From the NCBI RefSeq assembly GCF_017168255.1, contig NZ_JABFAP010000001.1, forward strand, positions 2,598,449 to 2,662,448: a DNA stretch of 64,000 bases, in the 5' to 3' direction. Position numbers and translations under genes: made by a program. This DNA is from Agrococcus sp. KRD186. GTDB taxonomy: Bacteria > Actinomycetota > Actinomycetes > Actinomycetales > Microbacteriaceae. Numbering within the stretch: position 1 is the first letter of the stretch; the number at the start of each line of letters is the position of its first letter. This document shows, piece after piece, positions 8,755 through 34,226 of the stretch. A model generated the notes under the pieces. The model made no database searches. It saw only the letters and a program-made list of their open reading frames with translations, and was not told the DNA's origin.

Positions 8755-9873
8755 GCGCGAGCGGCGGATGCCCTGCAGGTCGAGCGCCTCGTCGAGCAGC
8801 AGGTTCGCGGCTTCGGCGCTGCGCTCGGCGGCGCGGATGGCGTGGCCCACCAGGTGGAGCGAGGTGAGCGCCGTCGTGTGCGGCGTCAGCATCCAGCGGT
8901 CGGCGGCGGTCTCGGCAAGCGTGTGGAGCAGCAGCGCGTCGCTCGCCCGGCCGGCGACCTCGTTGCGGACGGCGCTCGCGGTCGCGTGCCCGATGAACGC
9001 GGCGGTGTCGTCGCAGCGATCGCCGAGCCCGGCGGTGTCGACGTCGATGATGGATGCGACGGCGCCGTCGGCGAAGAAGAGCTGGCCGATGTGCAGGTCG
9101 CCGTGGATGACGCGCGGAGCGCCGACGCGCCGGATGTCGGGCTGCACCGCCGCGGCCAGCGCGTGCACCTCGCGCTCGCGCTCGGGCAGCAGCGCCGCCA
9201 GCCGGTCGATGTGCCACTCGATCCTCGAGCCCACCGACGCCCGGGCGATGCGCCGGGTGCGCACGCCGGCCAGCCGCTCCCGCAGATCGTCGACCGCGTC
9301 GAGCAGGTCGGATGCGCTGGTCGCGGCCGCGGCGACGGGGCCGCGGATGCCGGGTGCGTCGCGCACCACGAGCACGCCGGAGGGGGCCCAGTGCACCACC
9401 TTCGGCGCAGGCACGCCGGCGTCGCGGCACGCCTGGTGGATCATCGCCAGATCCTCGGCCTCGCCCGGCCGCACCACCTTCACGAACAGGTGGCGCTCGT
9501 GCTGCGTGAGCCGCACCACGGCCCGCCGCCCCGGGCGGTAGGAGAGCACGCGCGCGTCGATGGGGCCCGGCGTGCTGCCGCCCGCGAGCGCGATGCGCAG
9601 CAGCCGCTCGGGATCGAGGGCGGTGCGCAGCGCCGGCAGGCGCGGGTCGAAGGGGTGCTTCCAGATGCGGGCGACGGGCTTGTCGCCGCCGTCGCGGATC
9701 ACGAAGCCGGTCTCCCTGGCGACCGGCTGGCGCGAGGTGTCGACGAACCACTCGCCCTGCTCGGGCCCGTCGTCGACGGTGAAGCGCACGATGCGACCCT
9801 CGCCGAAGGGCTCGCCGGCGATGTGGCGACCGGGTGTCCCGATCGCCTGCTCCAGCAGCCGCGCTTCCAGCAT
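8752..9873 (-). CDS. APH-fold phosphotransferase, copy 2
   Basis: This 373-residue paralogue of the 5132-6367 product shares WFVDTSRQPVARETGF, ARIWKHPFDPRLPAL, the catalytic IHGDLHIGQLFF and the metal site IIDVDTAGLGDRCDD. It is convergent with the response regulator, separated only by a 13-bp hairpin spacer, so transcription can meet between them. The two copies bracket the kinase/regulator pair on both sides. That arrangement suggests they arose by duplication around it and may modify the same class of compound. The substrate cannot be inferred. Start ATG at 9873. Confidence 0.75.
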   Translation of the reverse strand: MLEARLLEQAIGTPGRHIAGEPFGEGRIVRFTVDDGPEQGEWFVDTSRQPVARETGFVIRDGGDKPVARIWKHPFDPRLPALRTALDPERLLRIALAGGSTPGPIDARVLSYRPGRRAVVRLTQHERHLFVKVVRPGEAEDLAMIHQACRDAGVPAPKVVHWAPSGVLVVRDAPGIRGPVAAAATSASDLLDAVDDLRERLAGVRTRRIARASVGSRIEWHIDRLAALLPEREREVHALAAAVQPDIRRVGAPRVIHGDLHIGQLFFADGAVASIIDVDTAGLGDRCDDTAAFIGHATASAVRNEVAGRASDALLLHTLAETAADRWMLTPHTTALTSLHLVGHAIRAAERSAEAANLLLDEALDLQGIRRSR

Positions 9874-26196: not shown

Positions 26197-26267
26197 GCGG
26201 ATGTAGTTCAATGGTAGAACTTCAGCTTCCCAAGCTGATAGCGCGGGTTCGATTCCCGTCATCCGCT
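26197..26267 (+). tRNA. tRNA-Gly (anticodon CCC)
   Basis: The acceptor stem GCGGATG pairs with CATCCGC. The D arm is GTTCAATGGTAGAAC. The anticodon stem-loop TCAGC-TTCCCAA-GCTGA gives anticodon CCC (codon GGG), and the T arm is GCGGG-TTCGATT-CCCGT. The discriminator is T and no CCA is encoded. The gene is intact, but its 3' 41 bases are also the left attachment site of the integrated element, and its own terminator now lies beyond attR. Confidence 0.93.
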
Positions 26268-26268
26268 C
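26227..26268 (+). other. attL core, 42-bp direct repeat
   Basis: The 42 bp from TTCCCAAGCTG (anticodon loop) to CATCCGCTC are identical to 34185-34226. The repeat restores the 3' part of the tRNA on the left, as usual for tyrosine-integrase elements in tRNA genes. The bases flanking the two copies differ on both sides, so the boundaries are exact. Confidence 0.93.
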
Positions 26269-26286
26269 GAGGTCAACACCCGCAGG

Positions 26287-26364
26287 ATTCCGCGGAATTC
26301 TGAGGGTCGAGACACTCACGAGGGCAGCGCGTTCAGACCCTGCCGTGGACTCACGTGGACTCAC
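26287..26364. promoter_or_regulatory. left arm-type recombinase sites (candidate)
   Basis: The palindrome-containing ATTCCGCGGAATTC (26287-26300) and two adjacent copies of GTGGACTCAC (26345-26364) lie between attL and the integrase start. Both motifs recur inside the other end (34131-34144 and 34046-34065). This is what accessory arm sites of a lambda-type integrase, or binding sites of the excisionase, would look like. Confidence 0.6.
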
Positions 26365-26386
26365 GTGGTGAAAACGGGACTGAACG

Positions 26387-27787
26387 ATGACCGCGAAAAC
26401 CGCCCGCACCGGCACCCGCAAGAGCGCAACACGCCGCACCCCCAGCACCTGGGGCACGACCGAGCAGCTGCCCTCGGGCCGCTGGCGAGCCCGCTATCGG
26501 CTCGCCGGCCGCAGCATCGCCGCCGGCCGCACGTTCGACACCCGCGAGCAGGCCGCCGCCTGGCTCGCCGGCGAGCACGCCGACCGCTCGCGCGGCGTCT
26601 GGGTCGACCCCGAGACCGGCTCGCAGACGCTCGCCGACTACGCCCGCGAGTGGCTCGCCGGCCGCGTCGACCTCACCCCGCGCACGGCCGAGCTGTACGC
26701 CGACACGCTCGAGCGCTGGGTGCTGCCGCGCTTCCAGCTGCCCGGCCGGCGCGGCGGCATCGAGCTGGGCAGCATCGAGCTGCGCGAGCTGTCGCCGGCG
26801 GTGGTGCGCGCCTGGCACTCGGCCATGTTCGACGCCGCCCGCGCCGCCGGCCTCGCCCGCCAGGCCTCGGCCTCGACCGCCCGCGACCCGCACCCGGCCC
26901 GCCGCTGGGCCGCGCACAAGGGCATGAGCGTGCCCGCCACCGGCAAGCTCTCCGACGAGGTGCTGCGCGCCTGGCGGGCCGCCGGCGAGCCGGTACTGCC
27001 GGTGCTGCGCGCCAAGCCCGAGCACGACCTGGCCTCGGCCGGCCGCTCGACCGCCGCCCGCGCCTACGCGCTGCTGCGCAACATCTGCAACGCCGCCAAG
27101 GCCGACGAGCTGCTGACCGGCGACAACCCCTGCCGGGTGCGCGGTGCCGGCCAGCACACCGCCGCCGAGCGCTCGACCGCCAACCCCGCCGAGGTCGCCG
27201 CGCTCGCCGCCGCGATGCCGGTGCACCTCTCGGCCGCCGTCACGCTCGCCGCCTGGTCGGGGCTGCGACGCGGCGAACTGTTCGCCCTCGCCCGCCGGCA
27301 CGTCGACCTCGACGCCGGCACGCTGCGCGTCGAGCGAGCACTGCTCGAGCTGCGCGGCCAGGGCATCACGTTCGGCGAGACCAAGACGCGCAAGAGCCGC
27401 CGGCTGGTGCACCTGCCGCCGTTCGCGGTGGCGATCCTCGAGGCGCACATGCGCGAGCACGTCGCAGCTGCGCCCGACGCGCTGCTGTTTTCGACCAACG
27501 GCGCACCGGTGAGCGTGTCGCGGCTGTCGCAGTGGTTCAAGGCCGCCCGGCTCACGGTCGGCCGGCTCGACCTCACCTGGCACGACCTGCGCCACACCGG
27601 CGCGACGCTCGCCTACCGCGCCGGCGCATCGGTGCCCGAGGTGCAGGCCCGGCTCGGCCACACGACCATGCGCGCCGCGCTGATCTACGCGCACGCCGCC
27701 GACGACTCCGACCGGATTCTCGCCGAGCGCCTGGACGCGCTCTACGCCGCCGAGTCGACCGCGCCGAGACTGCGCGCGGTGGGCTGA
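26387..27787 (+). CDS. tyrosine-type site-specific integrase
   Basis: The 466-residue integrase has an N-terminal arm-binding region (SGRWRARYRLAGRSIAAGRTF), a core-binding SAM-like domain (about 75-230) and a complete catalytic domain: Arg294 in WSGLRRGEL, the beta-hairpin Lys region ETKTRKSRR, His399 and Arg402 in HDLRHTGATL, His425 in RLGHTT and nucleophile Tyr434 in ALIYAHA. It lies 119 bp from attL and reads into the element, the normal position for the enzyme that integrates it into tRNA-Gly. The core-binding domain carries an insert of about 50 residues (near 150-200) compared with compact phage integrases. Confidence 0.92.
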   Translation: MTAKTARTGTRKSATRRTPSTWGTTEQLPSGRWRARYRLAGRSIAAGRTFDTREQAAAWLAGEHADRSRGVWVDPETGSQTLADYAREWLAGRVDLTPRTAELYADTLERWVLPRFQLPGRRGGIELGSIELRELSPAVVRAWHSAMFDAARAAGLARQASASTARDPHPARRWAAHKGMSVPATGKLSDEVLRAWRAAGEPVLPVLRAKPEHDLASAGRSTAARAYALLRNICNAAKADELLTGDNPCRVRGAGQHTAAERSTANPAEVAALAAAMPVHLSAAVTLAAWSGLRRGELFALARRHVDLDAGTLRVERALLELRGQGITFGETKTRKSRRLVHLPPFAVAILEAHMREHVAAAPDALLFSTNGAPVSVSRLSQWFKAARLTVGRLDLTWHDLRHTGATLAYRAGASVPEVQARLGHTTMRAALIYAHAADDSDRILAERLDALYAAESTAPRLRAVG

Positions 27788-27810
27788 CCATGAGAGAAGC
27801 CCCGCATCGC

Positions 27811-27836
27811 ACGCCTGCAACGCCTGCACGCCTGCA
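27811..27836 (-). repeat. inverted-orientation iteron cluster (ACGCCTGCA x3)
   Basis: Three adjacent copies of ACGCCTGCA (the third lacking its first A) follow the integrase stop. They are the reverse complement of the TGCAGGCGT units at 31738-31885 and probably bind the same protein. Confidence 0.6.
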
Positions 27837-28681: not shown

Positions 28682-28894
28682 ATGCACACCCCCAACCAAG
28701 AGCAGCGCCGCCTGCTCACCCTGCTCGAGGTCGCCGAGGTGCTCGGCACCGGCGAGCGCATGGCCCGCCGCATCGTCAGCGAGCGCCGCGTGCCCGTCGT
28801 CAAGGTCGGCCGTCACGTGCGCGTGTGGTCAGACGACCTCGACGCCTACCTCGAGTCCAACACCGAGCCCGCAACCCGCGCGGCCAAGCGATGA
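28682..28894 (+). CDS. excisionase-like helix-turn-helix protein
   Basis: This 70-residue protein is a single MerR/excisionase-type HTH domain: LLTLLEVAEVLGTGERMARR (recognition helices), then ERRVPVVKVGRHVRVWSDDLDAYL, the wing and last helix typical of the helix_turn_helix_17 excisionase family. In such elements it directs excision together with the integrase and often represses the early promoter. It is the first gene of a five-gene unit; its TGA overlaps the next ATG by 4 bp. Confidence 0.82.
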   Translation: MHTPNQEQRRLLTLLEVAEVLGTGERMARRIVSERRVPVVKVGRHVRVWSDDLDAYLESNTEPATRAAKR

Positions 28895-29130: not shown

Positions 29131-29393
29131 TGCACCTCGAGCGCGCCAGCCACATGCCCGGCCCATCCCTCAACCGCGTGCGTGCGCAGCAGCGTGCCCT
29201 CGTGGCCGAGTTGCGCGAGCAGCTCGCGCGGTGCGAGCCCGACACCCCCGCCTATGCCGAGCTCGCGCACGACCTGCACGAGGTGTACCGGCGGATGCTC
29301 GGCCACTCGAGCAGCTCGCCGCAGGCCCGCGACGACCTGCGCCGCGAGCAGCACCGGCAGCGATGGGAGGCCGACAATGCCGACGACGCATGA
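29127..29393 (+). CDS. small coiled-coil-type hypothetical protein of the replication operon
   Basis: This 88-residue charged helical protein has VRAQQRALVAELREQLARCE as a probable coiled coil. The ending DDLRREQHRQRWEADNADDA reads on 17 bp into the primase gene, in another frame. Small proteins of this size before a primase in satellite elements are often replication accessory factors, but no family is recognised here. Confidence 0.6.
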   Translation: MMHLERASHMPGPSLNRVRAQQRALVAELREQLARCEPDTPAYAELAHDLHEVYRRMLGHSSSSPQARDDLRREQHRQRWEADNADDA

Positions 29394-30129
29394 CGCCCTC
29401 GCCCTCGCCGCCGCCGGCTGGCAGCTGCTGCCGCTGCGCGGCAAGGTGCCGCTCACGGCGCACGGCGTGCGCGACGCATCCGCCGACCCCGAGCAGGTGC
29501 GCGCCTGGTGGCCCGCCGGCGCGCTGCACAACCTCGGCGCGCGGGTGCCCGGCGGGCTCGTAGTGCTCGACCTTGACCCGCGCAACGGGGGCACACTCGA
29601 CACGCTCGCCGGCGCAGCTGGTGACGAGCTGCCGGCCACGCTCACGGTGCTGTCGGGACGTGGCGACGGTGGTCGGCACCTGTACTTCCAGCACCCCGGC
29701 GGCCGGCTCACCTCCACCCGCCTGCCCGAGGGCATCGACGTGAAGACCTCGACGGGGTACTGCGTCATGCCGCCGAGCCTGCACCCGGCGACCGGGCAGC
29801 CCTACCGCTGGCTCGGCGACGCCGGCCCGGCTCGGCTGCCGCACACGCTCGCGCAGCTGCTGCGCGTGCCGTCGCTGCCTCGGCCGGCGGCACCGCTGCG
29901 CGCCGATGCCGGGCTCGACGCCAAGGCCGCGCATCTGGTCGAGTACGTCGGCCGGCTGCCCGAGGGCAAGCGCAACGCCGGGCTCTACTGGGCCGCCTGC
30001 CGAGCGCATGACGAGGGGCAGCCGGCTGGCACGTTCGACGCGCTCGAGCGAGCCGCGCTGAGCATCGGCTTGCCCGCCGCCGAGGCTCGCGCCACCATCG
30101 CATCGGCGCGCCGAGGCGGTGCCGCATGA
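29377..30129 (+). CDS. prim-pol domain DNA primase/polymerase (N-terminal type)
   Basis: The 250-residue protein has the bifunctional primase-polymerase signature. LALAAAGWQLLPLRGKVPL opens the domain, LVVLDLDPRNGG carries the metal-binding D-x-D, and SGRGDGGRHLYFQ contains the conserved basic/His motif. VKTSTGYCVMPPSLHP and GQPYRWL complete it. A helical tail of about 70 residues resembles a PriCT-type end. It is split from its ATPase partner, which overlaps it by 4 bp. Start ATG 29377 follows GGGAGGCCGACA. It would prime or initiate replication of the excised element. Confidence 0.85.
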   Translation: MPTTHDALALAAAGWQLLPLRGKVPLTAHGVRDASADPEQVRAWWPAGALHNLGARVPGGLVVLDLDPRNGGTLDTLAGAAGDELPATLTVLSGRGDGGRHLYFQHPGGRLTSTRLPEGIDVKTSTGYCVMPPSLHPATGQPYRWLGDAGPARLPHTLAQLLRVPSLPRPAAPLRADAGLDAKAAHLVEYVGRLPEGKRNAGLYWAACRAHDEGQPAGTFDALERAALSIGLPAAEARATIASARRGGAA

Positions 30130-31634
30130 CGCCCACCGACGTGCCCGACGTGTCTGGCTTCCCTGAACCGCCCGAGCCCGAGCCGCAGGCCGAGGCTGGC
30201 AAGGCTGACGAGCGGCCAAGCGCGGCGACGCGGCTGGTGCGGCTGGCTGAGGGCCGCTACCGGCTCGGTGTCACGCCGAATGGCGAGCCGTTCGCCAGCG
30301 AGCGCGTGGGCAGCCAGCAGCACATCGCGCTGCCGCTGCGCGGTGGTCGCCTCGGCCTGCGCTTTGCGCTCGCCAGCGACTACTACGACCTCGAGGGCAA
30401 GGCAGCGCCGCAGGCGGCGCTGACGGATGCGCTGAGCGTGCTCGAGGGCAAGGCGCGCCGGCTCGAGCCGGTCGACCTGGCGATGCGGGTCGCCGAGGTC
30501 GACGGCGCGCTGTGGATCGACTCGGGCCGGCCTGACGGCAAGGTGTTCCACGTCACGCCGCAGGCGGTCGAGCTGCTCGACTCGGCACCGGTCATGTTCC
30601 GGCGCACCGAGCTGACCGACGCCATGCCGCTGCCCGAGCCCGGCGGCTCGCTCGCCGAGCTGTGGGACTTCCTGAACGTCGCGCCCGGCGACCGCCCGCT
30701 GCTCATCGCCGCGATGGTCGCCGCGTTCCGGCCCGATATCCCGCACCCCATCCCGACGCTGGCCGGCGAGCAGGGCACCGGCAAGAGCACCGCCGCCGCG
30801 ATGCTCGTGCAGCTGCTCGACCCGACGACCGTGCCGCTGCGCAAGCCGCCGCGCGACTCCGACTCGCTCGTGACGGCGCTCTCGGGCTCATGGGTGGCCG
30901 CGCTCGACAACATCTCGACGATGCCCGATTGGCTCAGCGACTCGCTGTGTCGAGCGGTCACCGGCGACGGCGACGTGCGCCGGCAGCTCTACACCGATAG
31001 CGGGCTGGCGGTGTTCCGGTTCCGGCGGCAGGTGGTGCTGACCGGCATCGACTTCGCCGGCCTGCGCGGCGACCTCGCCGAGCGGCTGCTGATGATCGAG
31101 CTGCACCGCATCCCCGACGACGCGCGCCGCGATGAGGAGTCGCTGCAAGCCCGCTGGGATGAGGCCCGCCCGCGTATCCTCGGCGCACTGCTCGAGCTGG
31201 TGGCGCAGGTGCAGCAGCTGCTGCCGACGATCAAGCTCGCGCAGTTGCCGCGCATGGCCGACTACGCCCGCGTGCTGGCCGCCGTCGACCGCCTGCACGG
31301 CACCGCCGGCCTGGCGCACTACCGCGCCCAGTCCGCCGAGGTCGCGGCCGACACGCTCACGTCGTCACCGTTCACGGCGCTACTGCTCGGGCTGCGGCTC
31401 GACGTGCTGGGCACGGCAGCCGAGCTGCTCGAGGTGGTGCGACCGCACGACGGCGAATGGCGCGAGCCTCGCGACTGGCCGAAGAACGCCCGCGCCGTCA
31501 CCTCGACGCTGCGCCGCGACGCGCCCGCGCTGCGTAAGAACGGGTGGACGGTGGACGACGAGGGCGACGACCGCACCGGTGTGAAGCAGTGGCACGTGTG
31601 CAGCCCCGAAGCAACCTGCAAGCACGACGCCTGA
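30126..31634 (+). CDS. D5/primase-helicase-like P-loop ATPase (replication protein)
   Basis: The 502-residue protein has an N-terminal accessory region (about 1-175) and an AAA-type ATPase core: Walker A TLAGEQGTGKSTAAAML near residue 220, Walker B-like WVAALDNIST near 262, and sensor VVLTGIDFAGLRGDLAERLL. The layout matches the helicase partner of prim-pol proteins in phages and satellites. It overlaps the primase gene by 4 bp and is followed by the iteron array, so it is the probable replicative helicase or initiator acting there. The last 60 residues look like a winged-helix (WPKNARAVTSTLRRDAPAL). Confidence 0.8.
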   Translation: MTPTDVPDVSGFPEPPEPEPQAEAGKADERPSAATRLVRLAEGRYRLGVTPNGEPFASERVGSQQHIALPLRGGRLGLRFALASDYYDLEGKAAPQAALTDALSVLEGKARRLEPVDLAMRVAEVDGALWIDSGRPDGKVFHVTPQAVELLDSAPVMFRRTELTDAMPLPEPGGSLAELWDFLNVAPGDRPLLIAAMVAAFRPDIPHPIPTLAGEQGTGKSTAAAMLVQLLDPTTVPLRKPPRDSDSLVTALSGSWVAALDNISTMPDWLSDSLCRAVTGDGDVRRQLYTDSGLAVFRFRRQVVLTGIDFAGLRGDLAERLLMIELHRIPDDARRDEESLQARWDEARPRILGALLELVAQVQQLLPTIKLAQLPRMADYARVLAAVDRLHGTAGLAHYRAQSAEVAADTLTSSPFTALLLGLRLDVLGTAAELLEVVRPHDGEWREPRDWPKNARAVTSTLRRDAPALRKNGWTVDDEGDDRTGVKQWHVCSPEATCKHDA

Positions 31635-31737: not shown

Positions 31738-31885
31738 GTGCAGGCATTGCAGGCGTTGCAGGCGTCGGATGCAGGCCCGCTCTCGGCATGAGTGCAGGCG
31801 TTGCAGGCGTTGCAGGCGTCGGATGCAGGCCCGCTCTCGCCGCTTGCCCTCGAGGTGCAGGCGTTGCAGGCGTTGCAGGCGTCGA
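31738..31885 (+). repeat. iteron array, TGCAGGCGT repeats in three clusters (candidate origin)
   Basis: Clusters begin at 31738, 31792 and 31855, each with three direct 9-bp TGCAGGCGT-like units and ending GTCGGAT or GTCGAAT. The spacings of 54 and 63 bp are both multiples of 9. The array lies directly after the ATPase gene, with single units nearby at 31704 and, inverted, at 31723. The rest of the 647-bp gap 31635-32281 holds a hairpin at 31909 and AT-richer DNA to about 32060. No gene is convincing there. Confidence 0.7.
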
Positions 31886-32281: not shown

Positions 32282-32548
32282 CTAGGCGGTGCGGCGCAGC
32301 CAGGCGCGTGCGCCGATGTCGGTCAGCTGCCACCGGCTGCTGACCTCGAGCCCGAGTTGCTCCGCTGTAGCCTCGGCCGCTGCGACGAGCTCAGCGCCGG
32401 CCTTGACCGGCTCGAGCGGTGCGAGCCAGCCGAGCGCAATCGGCTCGGACGGGTGCGCGAGCTGCACGCCCACGTGTGGCACCGGCAAGTCGCGCCAATC
32501 CTCCCCGACGCGCGTGACGACCACGTAGGCGCGTGGCTCGGAGGTCAT
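32282..32548 (-). CDS. small hypothetical protein coupled to the second recombinase
   Basis: This 88-residue acidic protein begins MTSEPRAYVVVTRVGEDWRD and ends RWQLTDIGARAWLRRTA; the pattern beta-alpha with a C-terminal helix is not one I recognise. It overlaps the 3' end of the triple-domain recombinase gene by 4 bp, so both are made together. The two form the only leftward unit in the element. Confidence 0.6.
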   Translation of the reverse strand: MTSEPRAYVVVTRVGEDWRDLPVPHVGVQLAHPSEPIALGWLAPLEPVKAGAELVAAAEATAEQLGLEVSSRWQLTDIGARAWLRRTA

Positions 32549-33987
32549 GCTGCTGCCACCGCTTCGACCGCCGAGCGCAGGCGCGAGGGCGATAGCTGCA
32601 CGTAGCGCTGCGTGGTGGCCGGGCTCGAGTGGCCGAGCAGCTGCTGCACGGTCAGCAGGTCGCTCGAGGCGGTGTAGGCGAGCGTCGCGAAGCGGTGCCG
32701 CAGCGCGTGCATGGTCACGCCGTCGGGCAGCAGCGCTGAGATGCGCTTGCCGAGGTAGCGGGCGCTCAGGTGGCCATCGAGCCGGCCGGGGAATGCGTAG
32801 CCGTCCGGCAGTGCGAGCAGCTCGCGGGCGATGCTCGCCGGCAGCGGCACGGTGCGCTGTTTGTCGCCCTTGCCGTGCACGAGCAGCTCGTGCCCGCCCT
32901 CGGCCGGCAGCACATCGCACCGGTGCAGCACGGCGACCTCGCCGCGCCGCAGGCCCAGCTCGGCCGCGAGTCGCAGCGCGAGCGCGTCGGCATCGTTGGC
33001 TCGGGCGAGCGCGCCCCGGTACTCGTGCTCGAGCGCCGGCCTCGGCCGAGGCTGGCCGGCCTTGACGATGGGGAAGCGCCGCAGCGGCGACTCGAGCACC
33101 CTGCCGGTGTCCTCGGCCCAGCGGTAGAAGCCAATGAGCGCCGAGCGCGCCATGCGCCGAGTCTCCGGCTTCCAGCGCTTGCCGCCCATCCAGGCCAGCA
33201 CGTCATCGAGAGTCACCGCCCATGGCTCGAGCGATGCGTGCTCGCGCGCGAAGCGGGCGAGGATCTCGTGCCGCGACCGCACGGTGGACTCGAGCCGGCC
33301 GGCAGCGCGGGCCGAGGCGGCGAAGCTGCGCAGCGGCTCGCGCCACGCCTCGGGCACCGGCTTGGCGACCGCGCGCCGGCTCGGCTCGGCGCTCGGGTCG
33401 ACCGGCACCCGCCGGGTGCTCGCCGCCCACCGGTAGAACGCCCGCAGCGACGTGCGGTGTGCCTGCCGGTTGCTCGGGGCACCGGGCAGGCTCTCGAGCC
33501 AGGCCGCGAGCTGCTCGCCGGTCACCTCCCACGGCGAGCAGTCGGCCGCAGCTGCGAAGCGCGTCACGTGCTTGAGGCGCAGCGCGACCGTCGCCGGTTG
33601 CCGCTTGGCCTGCGCCTCGGCCGCCTCGAATGCCGTCAGCGCATCCTGCCAGCGCGCGGCGAGCGTGTAGCGCGTCACCGCCGGCCGTGCCGGTGCCGGG
33701 CTGGCGATGACGTGGCCGGCCTCGACCGCCCAGCCGTAGAACGCCCGCAGCGCGATGCCGTGGTGCTTGCGCGCATCCGGCGACGCCGGGTGCTGCTCGA
33801 GCCAGGCCGCGACATGCTCGCGCGCCACGGCGAACGGTGGCCGCTGCACCTCGCGCGCGAACGTGCGCAGGTAGCCGACGCGCTGCGCCGCCGTCACCGG
33901 CGACAGCAGCGCCTCGAGCTGCGCCTGCTCGAATGCCTCGAGCGCCTCGGCCCACGCGCCCGATGCGCGCCTCTGGGTACTGGTCAT
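32545..33987 (-). CDS. tyrosine recombinase with three tandem core-binding domains
   Basis: This 480-residue XerC/D-like recombinase has catalytic residues Arg347 (LGLRRGEV), Lys373 (HGKGDKQRT), His427 and Arg430 (HALRHRFAT), His453 (LGHSSPATT) and Tyr462, so it should be active. The N-terminal 310 residues are three repeats starting at about 12, 113 and 215. Each has the SAM-like core-binding pattern W-x3-L-x2-F ... F-A ... PW-x-VT ... L-AAWL ... LRAFYRWA. Usual relatives have one. It sits at the right end, reading leftward, opposite to the other integrase. It might resolve dimers of the replicating form, assist excision or act at a second target. Confidence 0.88.
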   Translation of the reverse strand: MTSTQRRASGAWAEALEAFEQAQLEALLSPVTAAQRVGYLRTFAREVQRPPFAVAREHVAAWLEQHPASPDARKHHGIALRAFYGWAVEAGHVIASPAPARPAVTRYTLAARWQDALTAFEAAEAQAKRQPATVALRLKHVTRFAAAADCSPWEVTGEQLAAWLESLPGAPSNRQAHRTSLRAFYRWAASTRRVPVDPSAEPSRRAVAKPVPEAWREPLRSFAASARAAGRLESTVRSRHEILARFAREHASLEPWAVTLDDVLAWMGGKRWKPETRRMARSALIGFYRWAEDTGRVLESPLRRFPIVKAGQPRPRPALEHEYRGALARANDADALALRLAAELGLRRGEVAVLHRCDVLPAEGGHELLVHGKGDKQRTVPLPASIARELLALPDGYAFPGRLDGHLSARYLGKRISALLPDGVTMHALRHRFATLAYTASSDLLTVQQLLGHSSPATTQRYVQLSPSRLRSAVEAVAAA

Positions 33988-34045
33988 CTGCTCCCCCTCG
34001 AATGTGGCCGCAGACTAAGCACCCCCGCCCACATCTGTCCAGCGC

Positions 34046-34144
34046 GTGGACTCGCGTGGACTCGTGACCGGTAAAACGCGGTCAATCGCGGTCGCCAGCG
34101 GTCAACGTCTGATAGCCTGACTCCCGCATGATTCCGCGGAATTC
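34046..34144. promoter_or_regulatory. right arm-type recombinase sites (candidate)
   Basis: GTGGACTCGC and GTGGACTCGT (34046-34065) mirror the GTGGACTCAC pair at the left end, and ATTCCGCGGAATTC (34131-34144) matches 26287-26300 exactly. Between them is AT-richer DNA with GGTCAATCGCGGTCG repeats. The space 33988-34184 also serves as the second recombinase's promoter region. Confidence 0.6.
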
Positions 34145-34184
34145 CGGGGCATCACGCACTGTTAGGGCAGGAGCCCTGGCGCGT

Positions 34185-34226
34185 TTCCCAAGCTGATAGC
34201 GCGGGTTCGATTCCCGTCATCCGCTC
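34185..34226 (+). other. attR core, 42-bp direct repeat
   Basis: This is an exact copy of 26227-26268. It keeps the tRNA's 3' half (anticodon loop to acceptor) but lacks the 5' half, so it is not a tRNA gene. The chromosomal side continues with the original tRNA terminator. Confidence 0.93.

Follow-up and report, generated by a model that had tools for sequence, protein, structure and literature searches.

What a tyrosine recombinase with three core-binding (CB) domains does in an element that already carries an integrase is the question raised by a locus in Agrococcus sp. KRD186, analyzed here as part of a 64,000-nt stretch of DNA (hereafter, the window). The 480-aa open reading frame at positions 32545-33987 encodes a tyrosine recombinase that a sequence-only reading had described as three repeats of the SAM-like core-binding domain, spaced by 101 and 102 residues, joined to one intact catalytic domain. 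The coordinates given there hold for the minus strand, on which the frame lies; read on the plus strand, the same interval is interrupted by an internal stop. The recombinase ATG is preceded by GAGGGGGAG, and the stop codon overlaps, in an ATGA, the start of an 88-aa ORF on the same strand (32282-32548), which had no match in Pfam, PHROG or PADLOC.

The three repeats, denoted R1, R2 and R3, are all genuine CB domains. Pairwise alignment scores were 181 for R1-R2, 117 for R1-R3 and 137 for R2-R3, compared with maxima of 58, 68 and 64, respectively, and means of about 30-32, in 500 shuffles; alignment of the single repeats with the catalytic part gave scores of 24-31, that is, no repeat-like similarity. 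A profile derived from 48 single-CB relatives detected exactly three domains in the full-length protein: R1 (residues 9-100; 33688-33963, minus strand; 62.9 bits), R2 (residues 110-201; 33385-33660, minus strand; 73.5 bits) and, on the catalytic side, R3 (residues 212-305; 33073-33354, minus strand; 87.2 bits), in agreement with the spacing given in the sequence-only reading and with E values of 1.3e-18, 6.9e-22 and 3.6e-26 (Z 1000), whereas shuffled repeats reached at most 10.1 bits (300 shuffles per repeat). The 48 single-CB domains were excised with an earlier profile seeded partly by R1-R3; the final profile contains none of the three. The AlphaFold2 model, built on 27 sequences, consists of four-helix bundles at residues 3-89, 109-190 and 213-293, followed by the catalytic fold; the mean pLDDT is 92.3, and the pTM of 0.57 means that the relative placement of the domains is not fixed by the model. 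In Pfam searches of the whole protein, SAM_1 matched R2 above the cut-off and SAM_4 matched R3 slightly below it, with no domain match over R1; when the repeats were searched singly, Pfam SAM models matched R2 and R3 at E 0.025 and 0.03, and none matched R1. The first CB of two three-CB relatives (L069 and L073, see below) matches SAM_1 at 5.7e-4 (below the cut-off) and 1.6e-4 (at the cut-off), and R1 is the best-matching stretch for the PHROG integrase profile phrog_5127 (E 1.9e-5).

The catalytic domain (residues 319-480; 32548-33033, minus strand) matches Pfam Phage_integrase at 1.1e-15 and retains the complete R-K-H-R-H-Y set, with R347, K373, H427, R430, H453 and Y462 invariant in all 27 aligned sequences, the window protein included. 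Foldseek matches to Brujita Int, XerA, XerH and lambda Int identify the tyrosine recombinase fold. Profile comparison, structure prediction and residue conservation thus confirm a tyrosine recombinase with three true CB domains and one intact catalytic domain.

The nearest solved structure is that of the Brujita phage integrase (5vfz; 2.7e-16 by sequence, 4.5e-43 by profile, and ranked first by Foldseek among PDB entries), which, like the window protein, combines CB and catalytic domains with no arm-binding domain seen. The Brujita enzyme, however, has a single CB and is the phage's own integrase, whereas the window protein has three and resides in an element with another integrase; the Brujita enzyme forms a distant, very long branch in the recombinase tree of 61 rows described below. 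The window protein accordingly departs from the one-CB plan of the simple YRs (IntBrujita-like) in having three CBs, again with no arm-binding domain seen. The complex integrases of the lambda Int type offer a possible functional analogy, as they also have a second, N-terminal DNA-binding module; theirs, however, is an arm-binding fold, whereas the added module of the window protein is a CB duplicate. More than one CB is shared with RitA: in the survey of tyrosine recombinases (YRs) by Smyshlyaev 2021 (PMC8138268), RitA is stated to have two sequential CB domains that are absent from all other YRs. The ritA gene belongs to the ritA-ritB-ritC trio of neighboring recombinase genes in recombinase-in-trio elements, whereas no recombinase gene adjoins the window gene, its neighbors being the 88-aa ORF and genes of the element. 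The pHG1 proteins taken as RitA from gene order (n=2) are 26-27% identical to the catalytic part, with a weak or absent CB profile match, and pHG1 RitC gives a 32% match. Membership in RitA is ruled out by the three CBs, the lack of a recombinase trio and the distant similarity to pHG1. No description of three-CB tyrosine recombinases was found in the open-licence literature, so that this three-CB form of a known family has apparently not been described before.

The window protein is not the only one of its kind. At least 11 multi-CB proteins were found: three intact three-CB proteins, namely those of the window, Microbacterium sp. UC1 (L069) and a Salinibacterium MAG (L073); one three-CB protein divided over two frames, in Plantibacter (L070, equivalent to L045, the G120 locus); and seven two-CB proteins, from Microbacterium aoyamense (L071), Microbacterium sp. 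RU33B (L074), a Microbacteriaceae MAG (L072, equivalent to L046, G335), L047 (G281), Flavimobilis (L075), Oerskovia (L076) and a viral contig (L090). The distinct recombinase architecture envisaged in the sequence-only reading is therefore supported by the three CBs, the intact catalytic residues and the occurrence of two- and three-CB relatives beyond this genus. Among the matches listed for 398 genomes of the family, four genomes (the window's own, G120, G335 and G281) yielded E <1e-100 to the window protein, and the next-best match, at 1.1e-66, started at residue 198. Some weaker matches start at residues 147-185, partly with internal stops; L040 and L041, taken from these, have one CB. Further relatives came from scans of genome contigs and viral contigs, the former with two short peptide patterns and hence a sample of the relatives. 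None of the nine matched phage records and neither of the two matched plasmid records covered 80% or more of the R1-R2 stretch. In Plantibacter, the split falls within the second CB (positions ~9562-9720 of the locus) and may reflect decay, sequencing error or frameshifting. In Flavimobilis, a one-CB and a two-CB recombinase of the same family are encoded in tandem by overlapping genes (64-897 and 894-2006).

To place these proteins, a tree was built from 61 rows, 11 multi-CB and 50 single-CB, with midpoint rooting only; each locus was entered once, and every row had to contain a complete CB and a complete catalytic part. One clade with support of 100/92 unites eight multi-CB rows (the window, L047 and L069-L074) and sits beside single-CB integrases of small prophages. 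The Flavimobilis and Oerskovia proteins fall just outside this clade, among single-CB rows, and L090 is found elsewhere. Four changes of the multi/single label are needed on the tree, and well-supported branches impose three of them, which implies that gain or loss of extra CBs happened more than once.

The sequence-only reading proposed that the enzyme could reach several sites, bridge two recombination sites or recognize an extended target. Do the extra CBs read DNA in the same manner as the CB adjoining the catalytic domain? From the general CB-DNA geometry of tyrosine recombinases, the basic pair that opens the last CB helix (the ETRR position) would contact DNA. This pair is present in 10 of 11 catalytic-side CBs and 37 of 49 single CBs, compared with only 4 of 14 extra CBs, which speaks against equivalent DNA reading by all three CBs and argues against ordinary core reading by R1 and R2. 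Mean net charge follows the same division (+4.3 for catalytic-side, +4.5 for single and +2.4 for extra CBs). The FYxWA core is preserved in the extra CBs (F in 14/14, Y in 13/14, W in 11/14, A in 13/14). A Fisher test accompanying the CB comparisons gave p 0.0007, a value that is descriptive only as related sequences were treated as independent. A 39-row tree of CB domains, which took 14 single CBs rather than the 49 of the residue and charge counts, places all four first CBs and 9 of 10 middle CBs in a group of their own (13 rows; moderate support, 88/85), away from the single CBs and those on the catalytic side; the split second CB of Plantibacter was left out of both the tree and the residue counts. 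R1 and R2 retain the CB fold but probably not the DNA contacts of the catalytic-side CB.

Loss of the basic pair in most extra CBs, together with the Plantibacter relative split over two frames, would also fit a gene that is the functionless, decaying remnant of another integrated element. We consider this highly unlikely, given that the window gene is an uninterrupted frame with coding-type GC at third positions, that the catalytic residues are intact in all aligned sequences and that multi-CB proteins recur in several genera and element types.

The recombinase gene lies in a 7,958-bp element, not noted in the sequence-only reading, that is delimited by perfect 42-nt direct repeats corresponding to the 3' portion of tRNA-Gly(ccc). 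The target tRNA gene (26197-26268, plus strand; ARAGORN) contains attL (26227-26268, plus strand), and attR is at 34185-34226 (plus strand). Next to the tRNA gene, a conventional integrase (26387-27787, plus strand; Pfam, PHROG) is encoded, hereafter the primary integrase. An Lsr2-like DNA-binding stretch (residues 166-199; Pfam 7.9e-6, slightly below the cut-off; PHROG 2e-5) lies inside its core-binding region; in relatives of this integrase, the stretch is weak in L074 (0.0021) and was not found in L069. Downstream, all on the plus strand, follow an HTH_17 protein (28682-28894; Pfam HTH_17 2e-9) that might be an excisionase or regulator, a bifunctional primase-polymerase (29182-30129; Pfam Prim-Pol 1.2e-35), a VapE-like helicase (30126-31634; Pfam VapE-like 0.0014, below the cut-off), which is 39% identical over 478 aa to the helicase of L047, and 9-bp iterons, TGCAGGCGT, in three arrays with three copies each (31739-31884). 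The multi-CB recombinase gene is located at the far end of the element from the tRNA gene and oriented inward, on the strand opposite to the helicase and outside the helicase operon. Arm-like 10-bp repeats are present at both element ends, CGTGGACTCA on the left (26344-26368, plus strand) and CGCGTGGACT on the right (34043-34064, plus strand). In addition, the palindrome ATTCCGCGGAAT occurs within a 30-nt near-repeat (87%) just inside both ends (26276-26305 and 34120-34149), and part of the iteron unit recurs, imperfectly and in inverted orientation, shortly behind the primary integrase gene (27790-27828).

With the integrase at an att site with 42-nt repeats and its own primase/helicase replication module, the element displays PICI-like traits. 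No packaging or structural genes were detected in it by Pfam searches of seven proteins (two of them outside the element) or BLAST with the structural proteins of Rahul and Barebow, and PADLOC gave no match to a defense system among five proteins. Helicases of the window type (E up to 1e-30) are found in 6 of 398 genomes. Half of these six helicase-bearing elements carry a multi-CB recombinase; in the other three, a single integrase was the only recombinase within the 11-20 kb examined around each, hence the multi-CB recombinase is not essential to this type of element. Two of these latter three, both without a multi-CB gene, have genes for a major head protein (L119) and a tape measure protein (L117); tape-measure matches are weak in L047, L071 and L073, and there are none in L069 and L074. 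Because the related elements L119 and L117 encode head or tape measure proteins, the window element is described here as phage-satellite-like, a grading that rests on these relatives.

A separate integrase is encoded near the multi-CB gene in all eight members of the clade (the window, L047 and L069-L074), that is, in 8 of all 11 multi-CB cases; the count covers the eight cases with enough context, with L075, L076 and L090 outside it. In Oerskovia (L076), another recombinase is encoded ~7 kb from the multi-CB gene. A tRNA gene adjoins the separate integrase in seven of the eight clade cases, the exception being L071, where no tRNA gene was detected next to it. Flanking att repeats were identified in five of the eight (the window, L047 at 94% identity, L069, L073 and L074) and not in L070 or L072, L071 being outside that search. 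In L069 (8630-8977), L071 (10146-10469) and L074 (10149-10484), the multi-CB gene is overlapped by the gene of a small protein with the pattern CPxxWC...HGG, conserved at 36-41% identity; the 88-aa ORF of the window has no significant similarity to this protein.

Which of the two recombinases acts at the tRNA gene? Arm-like end repeats of the window type also occur in L069 and L074, the primary integrases of which are 57-60% identical to that of the window, and L073 has both a different primary integrase and a different end repeat. Since the type of end repeat tracks the type of integrase, we infer that the primary integrase, rather than the multi-CB protein, is apparently the enzyme for the tRNA-Gly site. 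The two enzymes could nevertheless be partners at the tRNA site, with the multi-CB protein serving as a co-recombinase or directionality factor and R1 and R2 binding the end repeats. The arm-like repeats at both ends, as well as the location of the multi-CB gene ~0.1-0.7 kb from attR in the window, L069 and L074, are compatible with such a partnership. We nevertheless judge it unlikely: in L047, L072 and L073, the multi-CB gene lies mid-element, behind the helicase, the end of which overlaps the recombinase start; L073 combines a multi-CB gene with a different integrase and end repeat; and only one recombinase was seen, within 11-20 kb, in three of the six helicase-bearing elements.

Outside the multi-CB group, the closest relatives are the integrases of phages Rahul, Coeur and Barebow and of Microbacteriaceae prophages, most of the best rows being 38-47% identical to the window protein over R3 and the catalytic domain. 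Integrases of the Rahul/Barebow type differ from it in having one CB each in those counted (Coeur is not among these). Phage structural genes are found beside single-CB relatives in 17 of 20 loci and 13 of 14 regions (overlapping sets), and in 13 of the 14 regions they resemble those of Rahul and Barebow. Repeats of tRNA type, 32-41 nt long, occur beside the single-CB integrase gene in 7 of 14 regions, and all 13 regions scanned for tRNAs (L103 is outside the scan) contain tRNA-Arg(acg) or tRNA-Lys(ctt). The prophage integrases thus apparently serve the phage's own tRNA integration, whereas the element of the window protein has another integrase. The unrooted tree suggests a phage origin of the multi-CB recombinase.

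These affinities raise the alternative that the protein is a captured integrase of helper-phage type that acts on helper att sites, forcing excision or blocking lysogeny by a competitor. Its nearest kin are indeed integrases of small actinophage prophages, 7 of 14 with att repeats at tRNA-Arg(acg) or tRNA-Lys(ctt), and the element of L073 likewise uses tRNA-Lys(ctt). In the window's genome, however, only two weak further matches were obtained (1.3e-8 and 9.4e-5), so no such prophage integrase is present there. Nor was a mimic of a helper att site found in the window element: beyond the element's own two att copies, the T-arm-like pattern gave a single chance-like match, inside the primary integrase gene (on both strands). 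On balance, action on helper att sites of this kind seems improbable. A few scattered matches to the T-arm-like pattern occur in other elements.

Searches for another target among the eight elements revealed no shared non-coding core site. Of the 24 14-mers common to at least three elements, those that were placed fall within predicted genes, chiefly integrase and recombinase, and no local inverted repeat among those listed was common to the elements compared (inverted-repeat rows arising from masked bases in one element were disregarded). Iterons were considered as the partner of the three CBs and dropped. Besides the three arrays in the window, a single array of 9-bp iterons is present in the three-CB element L073, with none in five shuffled controls per element; the three-CB element L069 has no iterons, and L119, which lacks a multi-CB gene, has two 9-bp arrays, both inside its helicase ORF. 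The simpler reading of the window iterons is a possible replication origin.

The interpretation that we favor, to which we assign roughly an even chance, is that the multi-CB protein serves a satellite-like tRNA-Gly element as its second, accessory recombinase, with R3 and the catalytic domain acting on the core and R1 and R2 docking elsewhere. A simple recombinase resembling the Brujita integrase, probably from a small actinophage, would have undergone duplication of the CB domain. The element would integrate at tRNA-Gly with its own, different integrase, leaving the multi-CB protein, which is probably active, as the accessory enzyme. R3 and the catalytic domain would form the usual clamp on the core half-site, and R1 and R2, as an added N-terminal module, may dock on flanking DNA or on partner subunits in the manner of an arm-binding domain. 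Where the gene is coupled to that of the helicase, the recombinase would probably be made during replication of the element, and it could act on the DNA of the element or of a helper, perhaps to resolve multimers or to recombine a site of the helper. A more specific version of this proposal, that duplication of the CBs has produced a new type of docking module at the N terminus, and with it another evolutionary path from simple to complex recombinases, and that the enzyme is a satellite recombinase for a site in the helper phage or the replication product rather than for its own tRNA site, is doubtful at present.

The natural series of proteins with one, two and three CBs offers a route to ask how recombinases gain docking modules. 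The presence of this multi-CB lineage outside RitA, beside single-CB relatives and in elements already equipped with an integrase, hints at a second, as yet unexplained step of recombination in satellite-like elements of actinobacteria.
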